A stretch of 5,625 nt of DNA from Tardiphaga sp. (lineage in GTDB: Bacteria > Pseudomonadota > Alphaproteobacteria > Rhizobiales > Xanthobacteraceae). Location of the stretch: contig JACMOT010000571.1 of NCBI GenBank assembly GCA_014377915.1, positions 1 to 5,625 of the forward strand, in the 5' to 3' direction. Positions 1,594 to 5,625 of this stretch are shown here, in pieces (position 1 is the stretch's first letter; each line of letters begins with the position of its first letter). The notes beneath the pieces were generated by a model. It worked only from the letters and a program-made list of their open reading frames with translations, ran no database searches and was not told where the DNA came from. Position numbers and translations under genes: made by a program.

Positions 1594-2418
1594 TTGCGCA
1601 TTCTGTTTATCGGCGACGTGGTCGGCAAGACCGGCCGCAACGCCATCGCCGACCATTTGCCCGGCTGCGTGCGCGACTGGAAGCTCGATCTGGTGATCGT
1701 CAACGGCGAGAACGCCGCCGGCGGCTTCGGCATCACCGAGACGATCTACAATGATTTCATTGATGCCGGCGCCGACGCGGTGACGCTCGGCAACCACGCC
1801 TGGAATCAGAAGGAGGCGCTGGTATTCATCGAACGCGCGCCGCGGCTGATCCGGCCGCTGAATTTTCCGCGCCACACGCCCGGCCGCGGCGCCGCCATGA
1901 TCGATACCAAGAACGGCGCCCGCGCTTTGGTCATCAACGCCATGGGCCGCGTCTTCATGGAGCCGCTCAACGACCCGTTCAGCGCCATCGGCAAGGAGAT
2001 CGATGCCTGTCCGCTGGTCGAGGCGGTCGATGCCATCGTGATCGATTTTCACGGCGAGGCTACCAGCGAGAAGCAGGGCATGGGCTATTTCTGCGACGGC
2101 CGCGTCAGCCTGGTGGTGGGCACCCACACCCATGTGCCGACCGCCGATCACCAGATCCTGGCCGGCGGCACCGCCTACATGACCGACGCCGGCATGACCG
2201 GCGATTATGATTCCGTGATCGGCATGCAGAAGGAAGAGCCGGTGCGGCGCTTCACCACCGGCATTCCGTCCGGCCGCTTCGAGCCGGCCTATGGCCCGGC
2301 GACCATGAGCGGCGTCGCGGTGGAAACCGACGACAGGACCGGCCTGGCCCTGAAGATCGCCCCGGTGCGGTTGGGTGGCCGGCTGTCGCAGACGGTGCCG
2401 GAGTTCTGGGTGAACTAA
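1594..2418 (+). CDS. YmdB-family (TIGR00282) metallophosphoesterase
   Basis: This 274-residue protein is a dinuclear-metal phosphoesterase of the YmdB type. Bacillus subtilis YmdB hydrolyses 2',3'-cyclic nucleotides and affects sporulation and biofilm choice; the substrate here is unknown. The metal-site residues are in order: D8 (GDVVG), E39 and N40 (NGEN), N67 and H68 (GNHAW), H153 (DFHGEATSEK), H178 and H180 (GTHTHVP). I chose the TTG at 1594 because GGAG (1582-1585) lies eight bases upstream, the protein then begins MRILFIGDVVG as family members do, and E39 takes the same number as in B. subtilis YmdB. A TTG at 1573 would add seven unsupported residues and overlap fau. It follows fau after one base, implying co-transcription. 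A diverged relic of its C terminus lies at 5498-5590. Confidence 0.93.
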   Translation: MRILFIGDVVGKTGRNAIADHLPGCVRDWKLDLVIVNGENAAGGFGITETIYNDFIDAGADAVTLGNHAWNQKEALVFIERAPRLIRPLNFPRHTPGRGAAMIDTKNGARALVINAMGRVFMEPLNDPFSAIGKEIDACPLVEAVDAIVIDFHGEATSEKQGMGYFCDGRVSLVVGTHTHVPTADHQILAGGTAYMTDAGMTGDYDSVIGMQKEEPVRRFTTGIPSGRFEPAYGPATMSGVAVETDDRTGLALKIAPVRLGGRLSQTVPEFWVN

Positions 2419-2420
2419 GC

Positions 2421-2432
2421 TGTCCCGGACGC
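2421..2432. repeat. Isolated arm of the palindromic repeat
   Basis: TGTCCCGGACGC occurs two bases after the phosphoesterase stop and is identical to the outer arm at 7-18. No matching second arm or inner GAGCCGGGACC arm is seen in the following 120 bases. It is therefore a single arm, probably the remainder of a truncated repeat unit, placed exactly where the downstream gene block begins. Confidence 0.6.
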
Positions 2433-2509
2433 GTTCTCGCGAATCGATTGAAGGTTTCCCCGAAAAGCCGCGGTCCCGATCGAGGGAAATCCGTGCACCG
2501 GCCGTACTC

Positions 2510-2547
2510 CCCCTGTCTGGCGGCGCGTCGCGCCGTGGTACTAGGGG
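2510..2547 (+). promoter_or_regulatory. Leader hairpin that can mask the porin ribosome site
   Basis: CCCCT (2510-2514) can pair with AGGGG (2543-2547), which is the Shine-Dalgarno sequence of the outer membrane protein gene. Inside this is a compact GC hairpin: CGGCGC (2521-2526) with GCGCCG (2530-2535) and loop GTC. The fold would hide the ribosome site and could tune translation. The pairing is visible; a regulatory role is inference. No convincing promoter was found in 2433-2509. Confidence 0.35.
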
Positions 2548-2553
2548 TTGAGG

Positions 2554-3270
2554 ATGAAGAAAGCGATCGGTTTGGCTTGCCTGCTCGGCCTGTCCGGTAT
2601 CGGCAAGGGGTTGGCGGCGGATCTCAGGGGGGCGGCTCCCGTAGCGCAGCGGCAGTTGGTTGTCCCGCAACTGCCGAGCTGGGCCGGGCTTTATGTCGGC
2701 GTCCAGGCCGGCCATCAGTCGGGCGGCGGCGACATCAATGTTCCTGCGACCGGCGAATTTCATGCCGTGGATCCAAAGTCGTTCATCGGCGGCGTCATGG
2801 CCGGCTACGCCATGCAACGGGGCCGCGTGGTCGGGGGTCTCGAAGGCGACATCAATGTGCTCGGCGGCAGTGCGCTTGTGGATACCGGCTTGGCGCCCGA
2901 TCCCGCGGTGACCCAGCTGCGGACTAAAATGAGCTGGAATGGCCATTTGCGGGGCCGGCTCGGCTACAGCTTCGATCAGGCGATGATCTTTATGGCCGGC
3001 GGTCTGGCGCTGGCGGGAGTCGAGAACAAGGCGATCGACAATGCGGCGGGCGTGACCGCGATCTGGAACGACACGCGCGCGGGCTGGACACTGGGTGGCG
3101 GCGTCGATTACCGCATCGTCCCCGCGATGACCGTCCGGCTCGAATATCTCTACGACAATTACGGCACCACGACGCTTGCGGCGCAGACCGTCGGCAATGT
3201 CGCTTTCGCCGAACGCGCGCACACGCTCGATACCCACACGCTTCGCGCCGGCGTCAACTGGCGTTTCTGA
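2554..3270 (+). CDS. Omp25/Omp31-like outer membrane beta-barrel protein
   Basis: This 238-residue protein has a signal peptide (KK near the N terminus, hydrophobic stretch, probable cleavage at GLA-A near residue 21). The mature part fits an eight-stranded barrel of the OmpA-like/Omp25-Omp31 porin family common in Rhizobiales. Support includes the WAGLYVGVQAG first strand (43-53), the FIGGVMAGYAMQ strand (77-88), EGDINVLG, the LRGRLGYSF strand (132-140), GWTLGGGVDYRI (178-188), VRLEYLYDNYG (194-204), and the terminal LRAGVNWRF ending in the phenylalanine that BAM recognises. The ATG at 2554 has AGGGG (2543-2547) six bases upstream; a TTG at 2548 would overlap that region and is rejected. The likely role is structural or permeability-related in the outer membrane. 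It is the first gene after the phosphoesterase and lies 33 bases before a small secreted protein gene. Confidence 0.88.
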   Translation: MKKAIGLACLLGLSGIGKGLAADLRGAAPVAQRQLVVPQLPSWAGLYVGVQAGHQSGGGDINVPATGEFHAVDPKSFIGGVMAGYAMQRGRVVGGLEGDINVLGGSALVDTGLAPDPAVTQLRTKMSWNGHLRGRLGYSFDQAMIFMAGGLALAGVENKAIDNAAGVTAIWNDTRAGWTLGGGVDYRIVPAMTVRLEYLYDNYGTTTLAAQTVGNVAFAERAHTLDTHTLRAGVNWRF

Positions 3271-3303
3271 ACGCAATCACCACAGCGAAGAAAGGCTATC
3301 ACC

Positions 3304-3600
3304 ATGCGAAAATTTCTGATTCTGGCCGCGCTGCTCGTCGCCGCGCCCATCGCTAACGCGGCACCGCTGATGGTGCCGGATGCGCTGCGCCCCGCCATAG
3401 CGGCTGTCGCGAACGTAGAAACGGTGGCCTGCGTTCGTTACGGTTGGCGCGGCGCCGGCGTCTATCCCGGCTGTTACCGGGGACCGCGCTATGCGATGGC
3501 GGCGCCGTATTACGTTGCGCCGCGCGTCCATGTCGCTCCACCCGTCTATGTGCCGCCGGCGCGGCAATGCTGGTACGCGGGCGCGTGGCGGCTGTGTTGA
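3304..3600 (+). CDS. Small secreted Tyr/Pro-rich protein, four cysteines
   Basis: This is a 98-residue protein of unknown function. It has a clear signal peptide (MRKFLILAALLVAAPIANA, cleavage after residue 19). The mature part is rich in Tyr, Pro, Ala, Arg and Val, with repeated short patterns such as APYYVAPRVHVAPPVYVPPA (67-86). Cysteines at 43, 57, 89 and 98 (the last residue) could form two disulfides in the periplasm. Similar short secreted Tyr/Trp/Cys proteins are frequent and usually uncharacterised in Bradyrhizobium-type genomes. The ATG at 3304 has AAAGG (3291-3295) eight bases upstream. It sits 33 bases after the porin gene and 73 bases before the sigma factor start, so it could be co-transcribed with either. 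An envelope role is likely; nothing more specific can be read. Confidence 0.72.
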   Translation: MRKFLILAALLVAAPIANAAPLMVPDALRPAIAAVANVETVACVRYGWRGAGVYPGCYRGPRYAMAAPYYVAPRVHVAPPVYVPPARQCWYAGAWRLC

Positions 3601-3673
3601 TATCAGATCAATGGCGTCGGGTGCCCAGCGCGTGCGCCCGGTGCCGCCGCGCGGTGAAGCAGGGGCGCAGGCG

Positions 3674-4231
3674 ATGGTGGACGAAACGGACGAAGCCCTG
3701 ATGCTGGCAGTCGCCGCGCGCCAGCAGCAGGCGTTCCGCATCCTGATGGGCCGCCACATGCCGCGCGCCCTCAGAGTCGCCCAGCGCGTCGTCCGCAATG
3801 CCGCCGAGGCCGACGAGATCGGACAGGAGGCATTTTTGCGGATCTGGACCCGCGCGGCGTCGTTCGATCCAGCAGTGGCGCGATTCACCACCTGGCTCTA
3901 CCGGATCGTGCTCAATCTTGCCTTTGATCGCGTTCGCAGGCCGGCCTTCGCGCCGATCGAAGACGCCGGCGATGTCCGGGACGACAGACCCGAGCCGGTG
4001 GAGCGGCTGATCGCGGACCAGGAGCGGCGGATGCTGGAGCAGGCGATGGCGCAATTGTCGGACCGGCAGCGTGGCGCCATCGCGCTGTTTCACATGGAGG
4101 GGCTGAGCGGCGAGGAGTCTGCCGCGGCCATGAATATCAGCGCCAAGGCGTTCGAGTCGCTGCTGGCGCGGGCGCGCATCGCGCTGCGGGACAACGTCAA
4201 GAAACTTCAGGATGACAGGAGGTACGCATGA
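3674..4231 (+). CDS. ECF (sigma70 group 4) RNA polymerase sigma factor
   Basis: This 185-residue protein has the two conserved ECF sigma domains and no others. Region 2 spans about residues 7-90, with DEIGQEAFLRIW (47-58) for core binding and FTTWLYRIVLNLAFDRVRR (71-89) for -10 recognition. An acidic linker (93-115) follows. Region 4 spans about 120-178, with LSDRQRGAIALFHMEGLSGEE and the helix-turn-helix up to LLARARIALRDN for -35 contact. The ATG at 3674 has AGGGG (3661-3665) eight bases upstream and gives normal ECF length. Earlier starts at 3491 and 3611 add basic, unstructured residues, lack a ribosome site, and the first runs across the preceding gene. The stop overlaps the next gene's start (ATGA). 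It should direct a small envelope-stress regulon, probably held inactive by the anti-sigma protein encoded next; the promoter motif could not be identified. Confidence 0.9.
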   Translation: MVDETDEALMLAVAARQQQAFRILMGRHMPRALRVAQRVVRNAAEADEIGQEAFLRIWTRAASFDPAVARFTTWLYRIVLNLAFDRVRRPAFAPIEDAGDVRDDRPEPVERLIADQERRMLEQAMAQLSDRQRGAIALFHMEGLSGEESAAAMNISAKAFESLLARARIALRDNVKKLQDDRRYA

Positions 4232-4647
4232 CACGCGATCAATTCCAACAACTGGCCGATACATGGGGCGGCGACATCGATCGCTGGCCGGCGGCGGTGC
4301 GGACCGCCGCGCGCGGGATCGCAGCGACAGCGGATGGCGCAGCGATTCTGCGGGAACAGCGCGGTCTCGACAGGCTGTTTGCAACCGCGCCCGAGGTCGG
4401 CAGCGCGCGCGCGGGGCGAGCGGGCCTCGCCGTGCTTCAGCGCATCGCGCAGGCGCAGGCCGCGCCGCCCTGGTATCGCCGGGTGCTGCGGCCGGTCTCG
4501 ATGATTCCCGCCACCAGCCTGGCCTGTTCGGCGCTGCTCGGTATCTGGCTGGCGGGCGCGCTGCCCTATGATCACTCTGACGAGGCCATATCGGTGGTCA
4601 GCATGCTGCTGGATAGTTCCGTCATGTCGCCCTGGGGTGTGCAATGA
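4228..4647 (+). CDS. Probable single-pass anti-sigma factor
   Basis: This 139-residue protein should bind and hold the ECF sigma factor at the inner membrane. The cytoplasmic N-terminal part (1-90) carries FQQLADTWGGDIDRWPAAVR (6-25), a pattern I associate with uncharacterised proteins encoded after alphaproteobacterial ECF genes, followed by alanine-rich helices up to about 78. One membrane helix is predicted at about 92-112 (IPATSLACSALLGIWLAGAL), leaving a periplasmic tail of about 27 residues. No zinc-binding HXXXCXXC motif is present, so it is not a ZAS-type anti-sigma. It has a strong AGGAGG (4217-4222) five bases before the ATG and overlaps the sigma stop (4228-4231) and the sensor start (4644-4647), indicating fixed stoichiometry. 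The function comes from position and topology rather than from a named domain. Confidence 0.7.
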   Translation: MTRDQFQQLADTWGGDIDRWPAAVRTAARGIAATADGAAILREQRGLDRLFATAPEVGSARAGRAGLAVLQRIAQAQAAPPWYRRVLRPVSMIPATSLACSALLGIWLAGALPYDHSDEAISVVSMLLDSSVMSPWGVQ

Positions 4648-5087
4648 AATTCTGGCCGTCTCCGCCAAACCGCCTGCGCTGGGCGCTGCTGGCATCGCTC
4701 TGCTTGAATCTCGCGCTTGCGACCTATGTTTCCGCACAATGGTTCCAGCCGGCGTGGTCGTCGGCCAATGCCGGAATGCCGCTGCGAATGGTCGAGCGCA
4801 TCGCCTCGCGGCTGCCGAAGGAAGATGCCGATATCCTGTGGCGGATCTATCGCGACAAGCAGCCCGACGTCCTGCCACTGCAGGCGGAGTACATTCGAGC
4901 GCTGCGCGAGACCATGCAACTGACCGGGCAGACCGACCTCGACAGGCCGGCGCTGCGCGCCGCGATCCGCGCTGCGCGCGACAAACGCATCAAGATCGGT
5001 GATGCGGTGATCGATACCTTCATCGACATGCTGGAGCAGATTTCTCCGAAAGGACGGCGCCAGCTCGTCGGCGGGTTTCTCCGTTGA
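4644..5087 (+). CDS. Membrane-anchored periplasmic sensor, CnrX/Metal_resist-like
   Basis: This 147-residue protein has an N-terminal membrane anchor (about 12-30, WALLASLCLNLALATYVSA) and a helical periplasmic domain (about 46-147). The spacing of RIASRLPKEDADILWRIYRD (52-71), a second long helix LQAEYIRALRETMQ (79-92), DRPALRAAIRAARDKR (100-115) and a last helix to about 143 resembles the four-helix heavy-metal-sensor fold of CnrX and the CpxP/Spy group (PF13801-like). Third in the overlapping sigma/anti-sigma/sensor set, it probably controls anti-sigma activity from the periplasm. The protein contains no histidine at all, whereas CnrX binds Ni/Co through histidines, and its only cysteine is in the anchor. 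A classical metal-sensing site is therefore absent. It may sense misfolded protein, another ligand or envelope state. Confidence 0.75.
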   Translation: MKFWPSPPNRLRWALLASLCLNLALATYVSAQWFQPAWSSANAGMPLRMVERIASRLPKEDADILWRIYRDKQPDVLPLQAEYIRALRETMQLTGQTDLDRPALRAAIRAARDKRIKIGDAVIDTFIDMLEQISPKGRRQLVGGFLR

Positions 5088-5093
5088 GAAGAA

Positions 5094-5128
5094 GCGCCAG
5101 CGTCGCGAGGGATCTCCGTGACTGGCGC
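5094..5128 (+). terminator. Hairpin just after the sigma module
   Basis: GCGCCAG (5094-5100) and CTGGCGC (5122-5128) form a perfect seven-pair stem with a 21-base loop, beginning seven bases after the sensor stop. No T tract follows, so it would be a weak intrinsic terminator, an RNA-stabilising end, or a processing site separating the sigma operon from the cysteine-rich protein gene. Confidence 0.35.
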
Positions 5129-5189
5129 GTATCAGATATATCGGCCGGGATGGTCCGGGCCAGAATGATATCAGGCAAACGGAGCCAAC

Positions 5190-5498
5190 ATGGTGCAGCG
5201 AGTAATTTCCCGGACGCCGCGCAACGACGGCAAGAGGTTCATTTTTCGCCCCACCGATACGTTCATGCGGGCCCTGCTGGCGGCGGCGTGCCTGATCGGG
5301 ATTCTGGTGCTGACATTGTCGATGGCGATGGCGCAGGACGACGGAGGTCAGGCGCGGCAGGCCTGCGAGGTTGACTACCGCAAGCTGTGCACCGGCACCA
5401 TGCCTGGCGGCGGTCGCGTCCGCAAATGCCTGAACGACCATTTCGACGCGCTGTCCGACCCCTGCAAACAGGTAGTCTCCACATGGCCCAGCAAGTAA
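5190..5498 (+). CDS. Secreted cysteine-rich-repeat protein
   Basis: This 102-residue protein has an exported C-terminal domain with one cysteine-rich repeat of the PF00839 type (first described in Golgi apparatus protein 1, also found as short periplasmic proteins in Rhizobiales). The mature cysteines are C59, C67, C80 and C92 in the pattern ACEVDYRKLC, then VRKCL, then DPCKQVV, likely two disulfides. A hydrophobic signal segment at about 27-45 is followed by AMA-Q (cleavage near 48). The ATG at 5190 has GGAG (5181-5184) five bases upstream; it places 25 basic residues before the hydrophobic core, an unusually long n-region. The ATG at 5265 would give a normal signal peptide but has no visible ribosome site. 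It lies 102 bases after the sensor gene, so may be a target of the sigma factor. Function unknown. Confidence 0.78.
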   Translation: MVQRVISRTPRNDGKRFIFRPTDTFMRALLAAACLIGILVLTLSMAMAQDDGGQARQACEVDYRKLCTGTMPGGGRVRKCLNDHFDALSDPCKQVVSTWPSK

Positions 5499-5590
5499 CC
5501 GGTCTGGCGATCCAGACCGATGCTGACCGGGGATCGCAGGATCCGGTCGGCGATCGGCTGGCACAGGCGGTACCGCAGTTCTGGGTGAGT
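5498..5590 (+). pseudogene. Relic of a metallophosphoesterase 3' end
   Basis: Read in the frame of 5498, this stretch encodes TGLAIQTD (5498-5521) and RLAQAVPQFWVS (5555-5590). The intact phosphoesterase ends with SGVAVETD (2308-2331) and RLSQTVPEFWVN (2380-2415). By my count the last 36 bases agree at 29 positions and the first 24 at 15. The spacing differs by 15 bases, an in-frame five-codon deletion. Most residue changes are conservative (V/I, E/Q, S/A, N/S), suggesting the copy diverged as a working gene before being cut. The equivalent TAA stop is missing: the frame runs on through GTGAGTTTG into the repeat at 5604. An in-frame ATG at 5483 overlaps the cysteine-rich gene's end, but nothing upstream in that gene resembles the phosphoesterase catalytic core. 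Confidence 0.72.
5500..5519 (+). terminator. Hairpin after the cysteine-rich protein gene
   Basis: CGGTCTGG (5500-5507) and CCAGACCG (5512-5519) make a perfect eight-pair stem with loop CGAT, starting two bases after the TAA. The sequence after it (ATGCTGAC) has no T tract, so intrinsic termination would be inefficient. It lies inside the phosphoesterase relic, so the pairing may have evolved there or be coincidental. Confidence 0.4.
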
Positions 5591-5603
5591 TTGCGGCCTA
5601 TCG

Positions 5604-5625
5604 GTAGCCCGGATGAGCGAAGCGA
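5604..5625. repeat. Start of a GTAGCCCGGATGAGCGAAGCG-type repeat, cut by window end
   Basis: The last 22 bases begin GTAGCCCGGATGAGCGAAGC. From memory this is the first arm of a very common short intergenic repeat in Bradyrhizobium-like genomes, normally followed by AATCCGGG as the returning arm. The second arm would lie beyond the window. It begins 14 bases after the end of the phosphoesterase relic. Confidence 0.6.

Follow-up and report, generated by a model that had tools for sequence, protein, structure and literature searches.

The window, the whole 5,625-nt stretch of DNA that was analyzed, carries an intact metallophosphoesterase gene of the TIGR00282/YmdB family (ymdB; positions 1594..2418, plus strand). 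Its product matches PF13277 with an E-value of 9.7e-103 and scores 272.7 bits against TIGR00282, above the cut-off of 254.15, over model positions 1–257 of 266. The closest relatives of this gene are those of Tardiphaga, and some of the intact ymdB genes in relatives have longer ends than usual. A 5-formyltetrahydrofolate cyclo-ligase gene (1005–1592) adjoins ymdB and appears to be a fast-changing neighbor, its protein being 61% identical between the window and genome G200 (locus L107), compared with 92% for ymdB. A 6S RNA (262–422; RF00013, 79.3 bits) lies 5′ of the cyclo-ligase gene, and similar DNA occurs in 77 of 80 ymdB loci. Between the two lies a ParD/ParE-type toxin-antitoxin pair (443–1008; PF03693 and PF05016), for which the 80 ymdB loci gave no DNA match and the eight regions that carry the block described below no protein match. 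Dispersed repeats lie close to both window ends (92–145 and 5604–5625), which suggests that the window may be a complete contig bounded by repeats. The first of these recurs, whole or in part, in 13 of the 80 loci.

These comparisons draw on 80 named ymdB loci, kept from 161 candidates, and on 11 regions from genome searches, which together make up 91 loci, at least two of which (L143 and L147) repeat contigs among the 80. The family searches covered 391 genomes from a larger family, with two candidates per genome scored in the search that gave the ATPase match discussed below, up to ten for the heavy-metal-resistance gene, and up to six for ymdB, relatives of which were found in 377 of the 391 genomes (E ≤ 1e-60). 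Two genomes used repeatedly as references, G180 and G200, were found in a search of the genus of G002, whose ymdB locus (L002) is that of a Tardiphaga sp. Distances between genes were derived by hand from the listed gene positions.

Beyond ymdB, positions 2481..5513 (plus strand) form a block common to the window and G200, 83.7% identical over 3036 aligned positions. All of its genes lie on the plus strand. They begin with an outer-membrane beta-barrel protein (2554..3270; PF13505), present in four of the eight block regions, and a 98-residue protein (3304..3600) that matches no Pfam family and is present in six. The remaining four genes are found in all eight regions and encode an ECF-type sigma factor (3674..4231; PF04542 and PF08281; start codon picked by eye), a 139-residue protein without a Pfam family that is presumed from its position only to be the anti-sigma factor (4228..4647), a heavy-metal-resistance-type protein (4644..5087; PF13801), and a cysteine-rich protein of 102 residues (5190..5498), for which PF00839 falls just under the cut-off. 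A scan of ten window proteins matched no integrase family.

A degraded copy of the ymdB 3′ end

Positions 5531..5590 (plus strand) duplicate, in degraded form, the end of a TIGR00282/YmdB gene on its 3′ side. At the DNA level, 29 of 34 bases are identical between 5555–5588 and the tail of the window's own ymdB at 2380–2413 (40.1 bits). A comparison of this tail with 18 genomes from the G002 genus, whose listed sizes add up to about 105 Mb, gave at least two matches outside ymdB that reach 40 bits, a lower bound because scoring was limited to 40 candidates per genome. At two such matches per roughly 105 Mb, the chance of a 40.1-bit match within 5.6 kb is, by simple arithmetic, of the order of 1e-4. 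BLAST E-values are inflated in this GC-rich DNA, in which chance-like self-matches among 87 sequences reach 2e-5, and profile and shuffle controls were therefore used. A protein profile built from 70 distinct ymdB tails was searched against the six-frame translation of the 80 loci (1.4 Mb) and the window. Its best match outside ymdB is the frame of the relic, at 17.9 bits, followed by a place in locus L013 at 15.6 bits and then by one at 12.2 bits. A DNA profile of ymdB 3′ ends likewise ranks 5487–5588 as the best place in 1.53 Mb of related DNA with ymdB masked (27.1 bits, E 3e-6), ahead of L013 (23.8 bits) and the next match (13.7 bits). The relic still scores 27.2 bits once the window and G200 are dropped from this profile, while the top score among 3000 shuffled sequences is 14.9 bits.

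The signal is unevenly distributed along this stretch. Taken alone, the 3′ half of the relic scores 17.2 bits in the DNA profile and ranks second behind L013. The upstream half, with the translation TGLAIQTD (5498–5521), scores 4.8 bits with 5528–5625 masked and ranks 105th, which is not significant by itself. In addition, homology of the block with G200 extends beyond the cysteine-rich gene and its stop codon as far as 5513, so that part of 5499–5520 may be the flank of that gene. Positions 5499..5530 (plus strand) thus constitute a joint zone that is claimed by both neighbors, resembling the G200 flank of the block as well as the SGVAVETD stretch of ymdB, and the solid relic is confined to 5531–5590. 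This resemblance to both partners, seen in a comparison with proxies for the exact parents, may reflect short microhomology at the joint. The zone also holds a perfect 8-bp inverted repeat with a CGAT loop (5500–5519), directly 3′ of the cysteine-rich gene. The repeat lacks a T run and a terminator scan made no call, and an intrinsic terminator was therefore rejected at this place. In G200, a G+C-rich hairpin is predicted at the matching place after the cysteine-rich gene, the only such case, by eye, among the other block regions.

The initial annotation had described the whole of 5498–5590 as a parallel to the end of ymdB, interrupted by an in-frame gap of 15 bases. The profiles and the 29 identical bases bear this out for about 5531–5590, while the upstream half is ambiguous. 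The gap is arithmetically correct if both halves are homologous, but the profile alignment needs several gaps. The same annotation held that the segment is a relic of a homologous gene rather than a recent duplication, and here the profile matches agree; since the two tails differ at 5 of 34 bases, recent duplication is disfavored. Only the last 20 or so codons are confidently recognizable, and there is no complete open reading frame, although the frame of the relic continues without a stop to the window end. At about 60 nt the relic cannot encode the enzyme, and it is most likely functionless for the organism. Its best alignment is with a Rhodopseudomonas tail (L037), and its sequence does not separate tails of the recipient type from those of the G200 type. 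A second ymdB tail in the metagenome-assembled genome (MAG) G003 was also considered as a relic and rejected, because two contigs of that assembly, 97% identical over 648 positions, span the same locus.

The sequence 3′ of the relic is readable for 35 nt, to position 5625, and includes the start of a dispersed repeat (5604..5625, plus strand) that begins 13 nt after the relic, as counted by hand. In the complete genome of G180, which does not carry the heavy-metal-resistance gene, a repeat of this kind also comes after the intact ymdB, on the same strand and at the same offset of 13, with two mismatches to the window in a 12-base motif. A repeat within 50 nt after ymdB was observed in 8 of the 91 loci, compared with 0.26 expected from repeat density, and seven of these eight are Bradyrhizobium loci and thus not independent. 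The agreement with G180 in repeat, orientation, and offset makes the relic and the repeat look like a former ymdB end together with its own flank. The window thus shows what looks like a displaced tail with resident flank beyond the incoming DNA, over the 35 nt for which that flank is known. A search of a plasmid collection with 5400–5625 yielded no match at E 1e-5, and a plasmid origin was rejected on that basis.

The interval beyond ymdB in related genomes

Relatives of the heavy-metal-resistance gene were found in 27 of the 391 family genomes (E ≤ 1e-10), although the weakest of these, at 30–49% identity, may be paralogues. In at least 13 of the 27 carriers the gene lies 3′ of ymdB, on the same contig and strand and within 14 kb; this is 13 of the 18 carriers for which the place of ymdB was among those listed, and a lower bound because of the other nine. 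The distance from ymdB to the gene is 2.3 kb in G200, 3.25 kb in G064, and 8.3–13.5 kb in the eleven others. Among the 80 named loci, block DNA is found within 10 kb after ymdB in seven, all from Rhodopseudomonas, and directly after ymdB in none. In the genus of G002 the heavy-metal-resistance gene is present in 1 of 18 genomes, namely G200, where the block is directly 3′ of ymdB. No ymdB tail was found after the block in G200, in which the next gene lies on the opposite strand and was judged by eye to encode a sugar ABC-transporter permease. A convergent chemoreceptor gene is the next item after the block in G081 and G243.

The proximity of the heavy-metal-resistance gene to ymdB in so many carriers, together with the adjoining block in G200, indicates that the block is an old neighbor of ymdB and not a fresh insertion into this gene. 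This weakens one of two scenarios raised in the initial annotation, a simple insertion of 2419–5498 at the gene end. The observation named there as a refutation, an ancestral block order present in all relatives without the relic, is approached by these carriers and by G200, but the order is not universal, as the single carrier in the genus of G002 illustrates.

The conserved gene beyond ymdB is the convergent chemoreceptor, which has an MCP signaling domain (PF00015) and is related to the gene after ymdB in G180. It was located in 57 of the 91 loci, at an interval from ymdB of 3 to 11,682 nt with a median of 2504 nt; the value for L021 is too large, being based on a partial match. In the other 34 loci the chemoreceptor gene is absent from the available sequence, which extends less than 5.5 kb beyond ymdB in 13 and 10 kb or more in 21. 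This variable interval spans relatives from Bradyrhizobium, Rhodopseudomonas, and Tardiphaga, and its range from 3 nt to 11.7 kb points to a zone of repeated DNA gain or loss in this family. One further ymdB fragment was observed, in Rhodopseudomonas sp. Cfx3-05 (L013:14103-14148), where 28 nt from the interior of its ymdB recur without mismatch about 3.3 kb 3′ of the gene. This piece adjoins another chemoreceptor gene (PF00015 and HAMP) and is possibly a second ymdB scar.

Origin of the relic

The tree signal in ymdB changes along the gene. For the whole gene, the window groups with L002 and L003 (100/95), and G200 with L001. Split trees of 20 of the 92 available ymdB rows place the window in a clade with L002, L003, and G180 for codons 1–90 (98/96), and a pairing of the window with G200 is rejected for this part (p-AU 0.0056). 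After codon 90, the four-member clade is disfavored (p-AU 0.044) and the window with G200 is not rejected (0.113). G200 is nearest to the window by path in the 3′ part, yet the partner of the window in the best tree is, with weak support, L008 (80/85). Triplet break tests gave 5 of 500 permutations in each of two triplets, with breaks within 1758–1893, and 41 of 500 in a third triplet that includes L001, with a break at 1941–1974. Together with the split trees, the first two tests suggest a left-crossover zone inside ymdB at 1758..1893, a post hoc placement in that the split, the break point, and the triplets were all chosen after seeing the data. Fourfold-degenerate sites run opposite to a simple mosaic reading, since the window and G200 differ at 7 of 42 such sites in the 5′ part and at 27 of 100 in the 3′ part; in the block genes this difference is 0.21–0.44. 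As neither the 3′ part nor the block shows a reduced divergence from G200, the donor would not have been close to G200, or the event would be old. G200-like and G180-like genomes were the only proxies found for donor and recipient.

On balance, the relic is probably the old 3′ end of the resident ymdB, displaced when another ymdB allele and the porin/sigma block recombined in. The relic, its G180-like flank, the block beside ymdB in other genomes, and a mosaic signal in the trees are observed, and the order of events, a one-sided illegitimate joint, and the donor are inferred as follows. The recipient chromosome would have carried ymdB followed directly by the dispersed repeat, and the incoming piece of DNA another ymdB allele with the porin/sigma block behind it. 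On the left side, homologous exchange inside ymdB (at about 1758–1893) would have produced the present gene as an intact hybrid. On the right side, the end of the block may have been joined, with no long homologous stretch, at a point no more than about 100 bases from the 3′ end of the resident ymdB, whose tail and flank would then have come to lie 3′ of the block and decayed. The second scenario of the initial annotation, a recombined second allele with the old tail left behind, is thus the one favored by the flank and by the moderate, post hoc mosaic signal.

A tandem duplication of ymdB and block in an ancestor, followed by loss of nearly all of the second copy except the last ymdB bases, would equally yield ymdB, block, and a ymdB tail with the native flank of ymdB. 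It does not predict a mosaic signal in ymdB, and G200 lacks a tail after its block (in the window, further remnants could lie beyond 5625), so that we regard this origin as unlikely. Somewhat less probable again is a short copy of the ymdB tail, pasted by template switching in repair or replication independently of the arrival of the block. That such copies can occur without the block is indicated by the 28-nt piece about 3.3 kb downstream of ymdB in L013, in whose genome (G013) the heavy-metal-resistance gene was not found with up to ten candidates scored; a repeat at the same offset from the relic as from ymdB in G180 would, however, go unexplained.

An assembly artefact, in which the contig joins two metagenome strains between about 5500 and 5531, is improbable. 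Dispersed repeats near both ends of the window are as in metagenome contigs, and one ymdB end occurs on two contigs in G003, but the relic aligns with gaps and its frame passes the usual stop, which looks more like decay than like the working gene end of a second strain. The longer ends of some intact ymdB genes temper the argument from read-through. Chance similarity, or the end of an ABC-transporter ATPase gene on the minus strand, is highly improbable as an explanation, despite a 42-nt match of 85.7% to the C terminus of an apparent ATPase of this type in G065 (labeled by eye) and two more non-ymdB matches in G230 and G145. With two candidates per genome scored, the ATPase match turned up in a single one of the 391 genomes. 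The intact ymdB tail has a similar reading in antisense, the minus-strand frame runs into the dispersed repeat, and both profile and shuffle statistics favor ymdB.

More speculatively, the 3′ end of ymdB could be a recurrent landing place in this family, where ymdB-anchored pieces repeatedly enter before the chemoreceptor gene and push old tails downstream. The fading tails of the window and L013 would then record successive captures, a generalization that we consider conceivable though doubtful.

For many gained genes, nothing remains to show how they were acquired, and a displaced tail together with its native flank would reveal both the direction of one capture event and how its DNA was joined. 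The ymdB-chemoreceptor intervals offer a natural series for counting such events. No paper on this locus was found among the literature matches listed.

Comparison with known systems

The intact gene is a member of the TIGR00282/YmdB family (PF13277), and the relic matches the C terminus of that family, differing from it in being about 60 nt long and encoding no enzyme. An integrase-mediated island in a gene 3′ end is a poor parallel, as no integrase is present among the ten window proteins and no near-perfect direct repeats of the attL/attR type were found, the tails matching at 29 of 34 bases only. A closer parallel is homology-facilitated illegitimate recombination (HFIR), which has been described for conjugating E. 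coli as well as for three species with natural competence (PMC3240628) and proposed to account for the displacement of effector and immunity genes in Vibrio cholerae (PMC5361080). The likeness would lie in homology at one end and an illegitimate joint at the other (PMC3240628, PMC5361080). The present case differs in that it is inferred from one sequence, with an old and decayed joint and with parents known as proxies only.

In V. cholerae, orphan immunity genes and effector 3′ ends of the type VI secretion system (T6SS), like orphan Rhs 3′ regions, reflect a module that is anchored in a shared upstream region and pushes older material downstream (PMC5361080), as proposed here for ymdB. The cargo in the window is a porin/sigma-factor operon, unlike the T6SS modules. 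Moreover, displaced T6SS immunity genes can stay useful (PMC5361080), whereas the metallophosphoesterase tail in the window seems simply to decay. Ultimately, the locus is best seen as a known mechanism that has left an unusually legible scar, and as one more recombination scar of a familiar kind rather than a new type of element.
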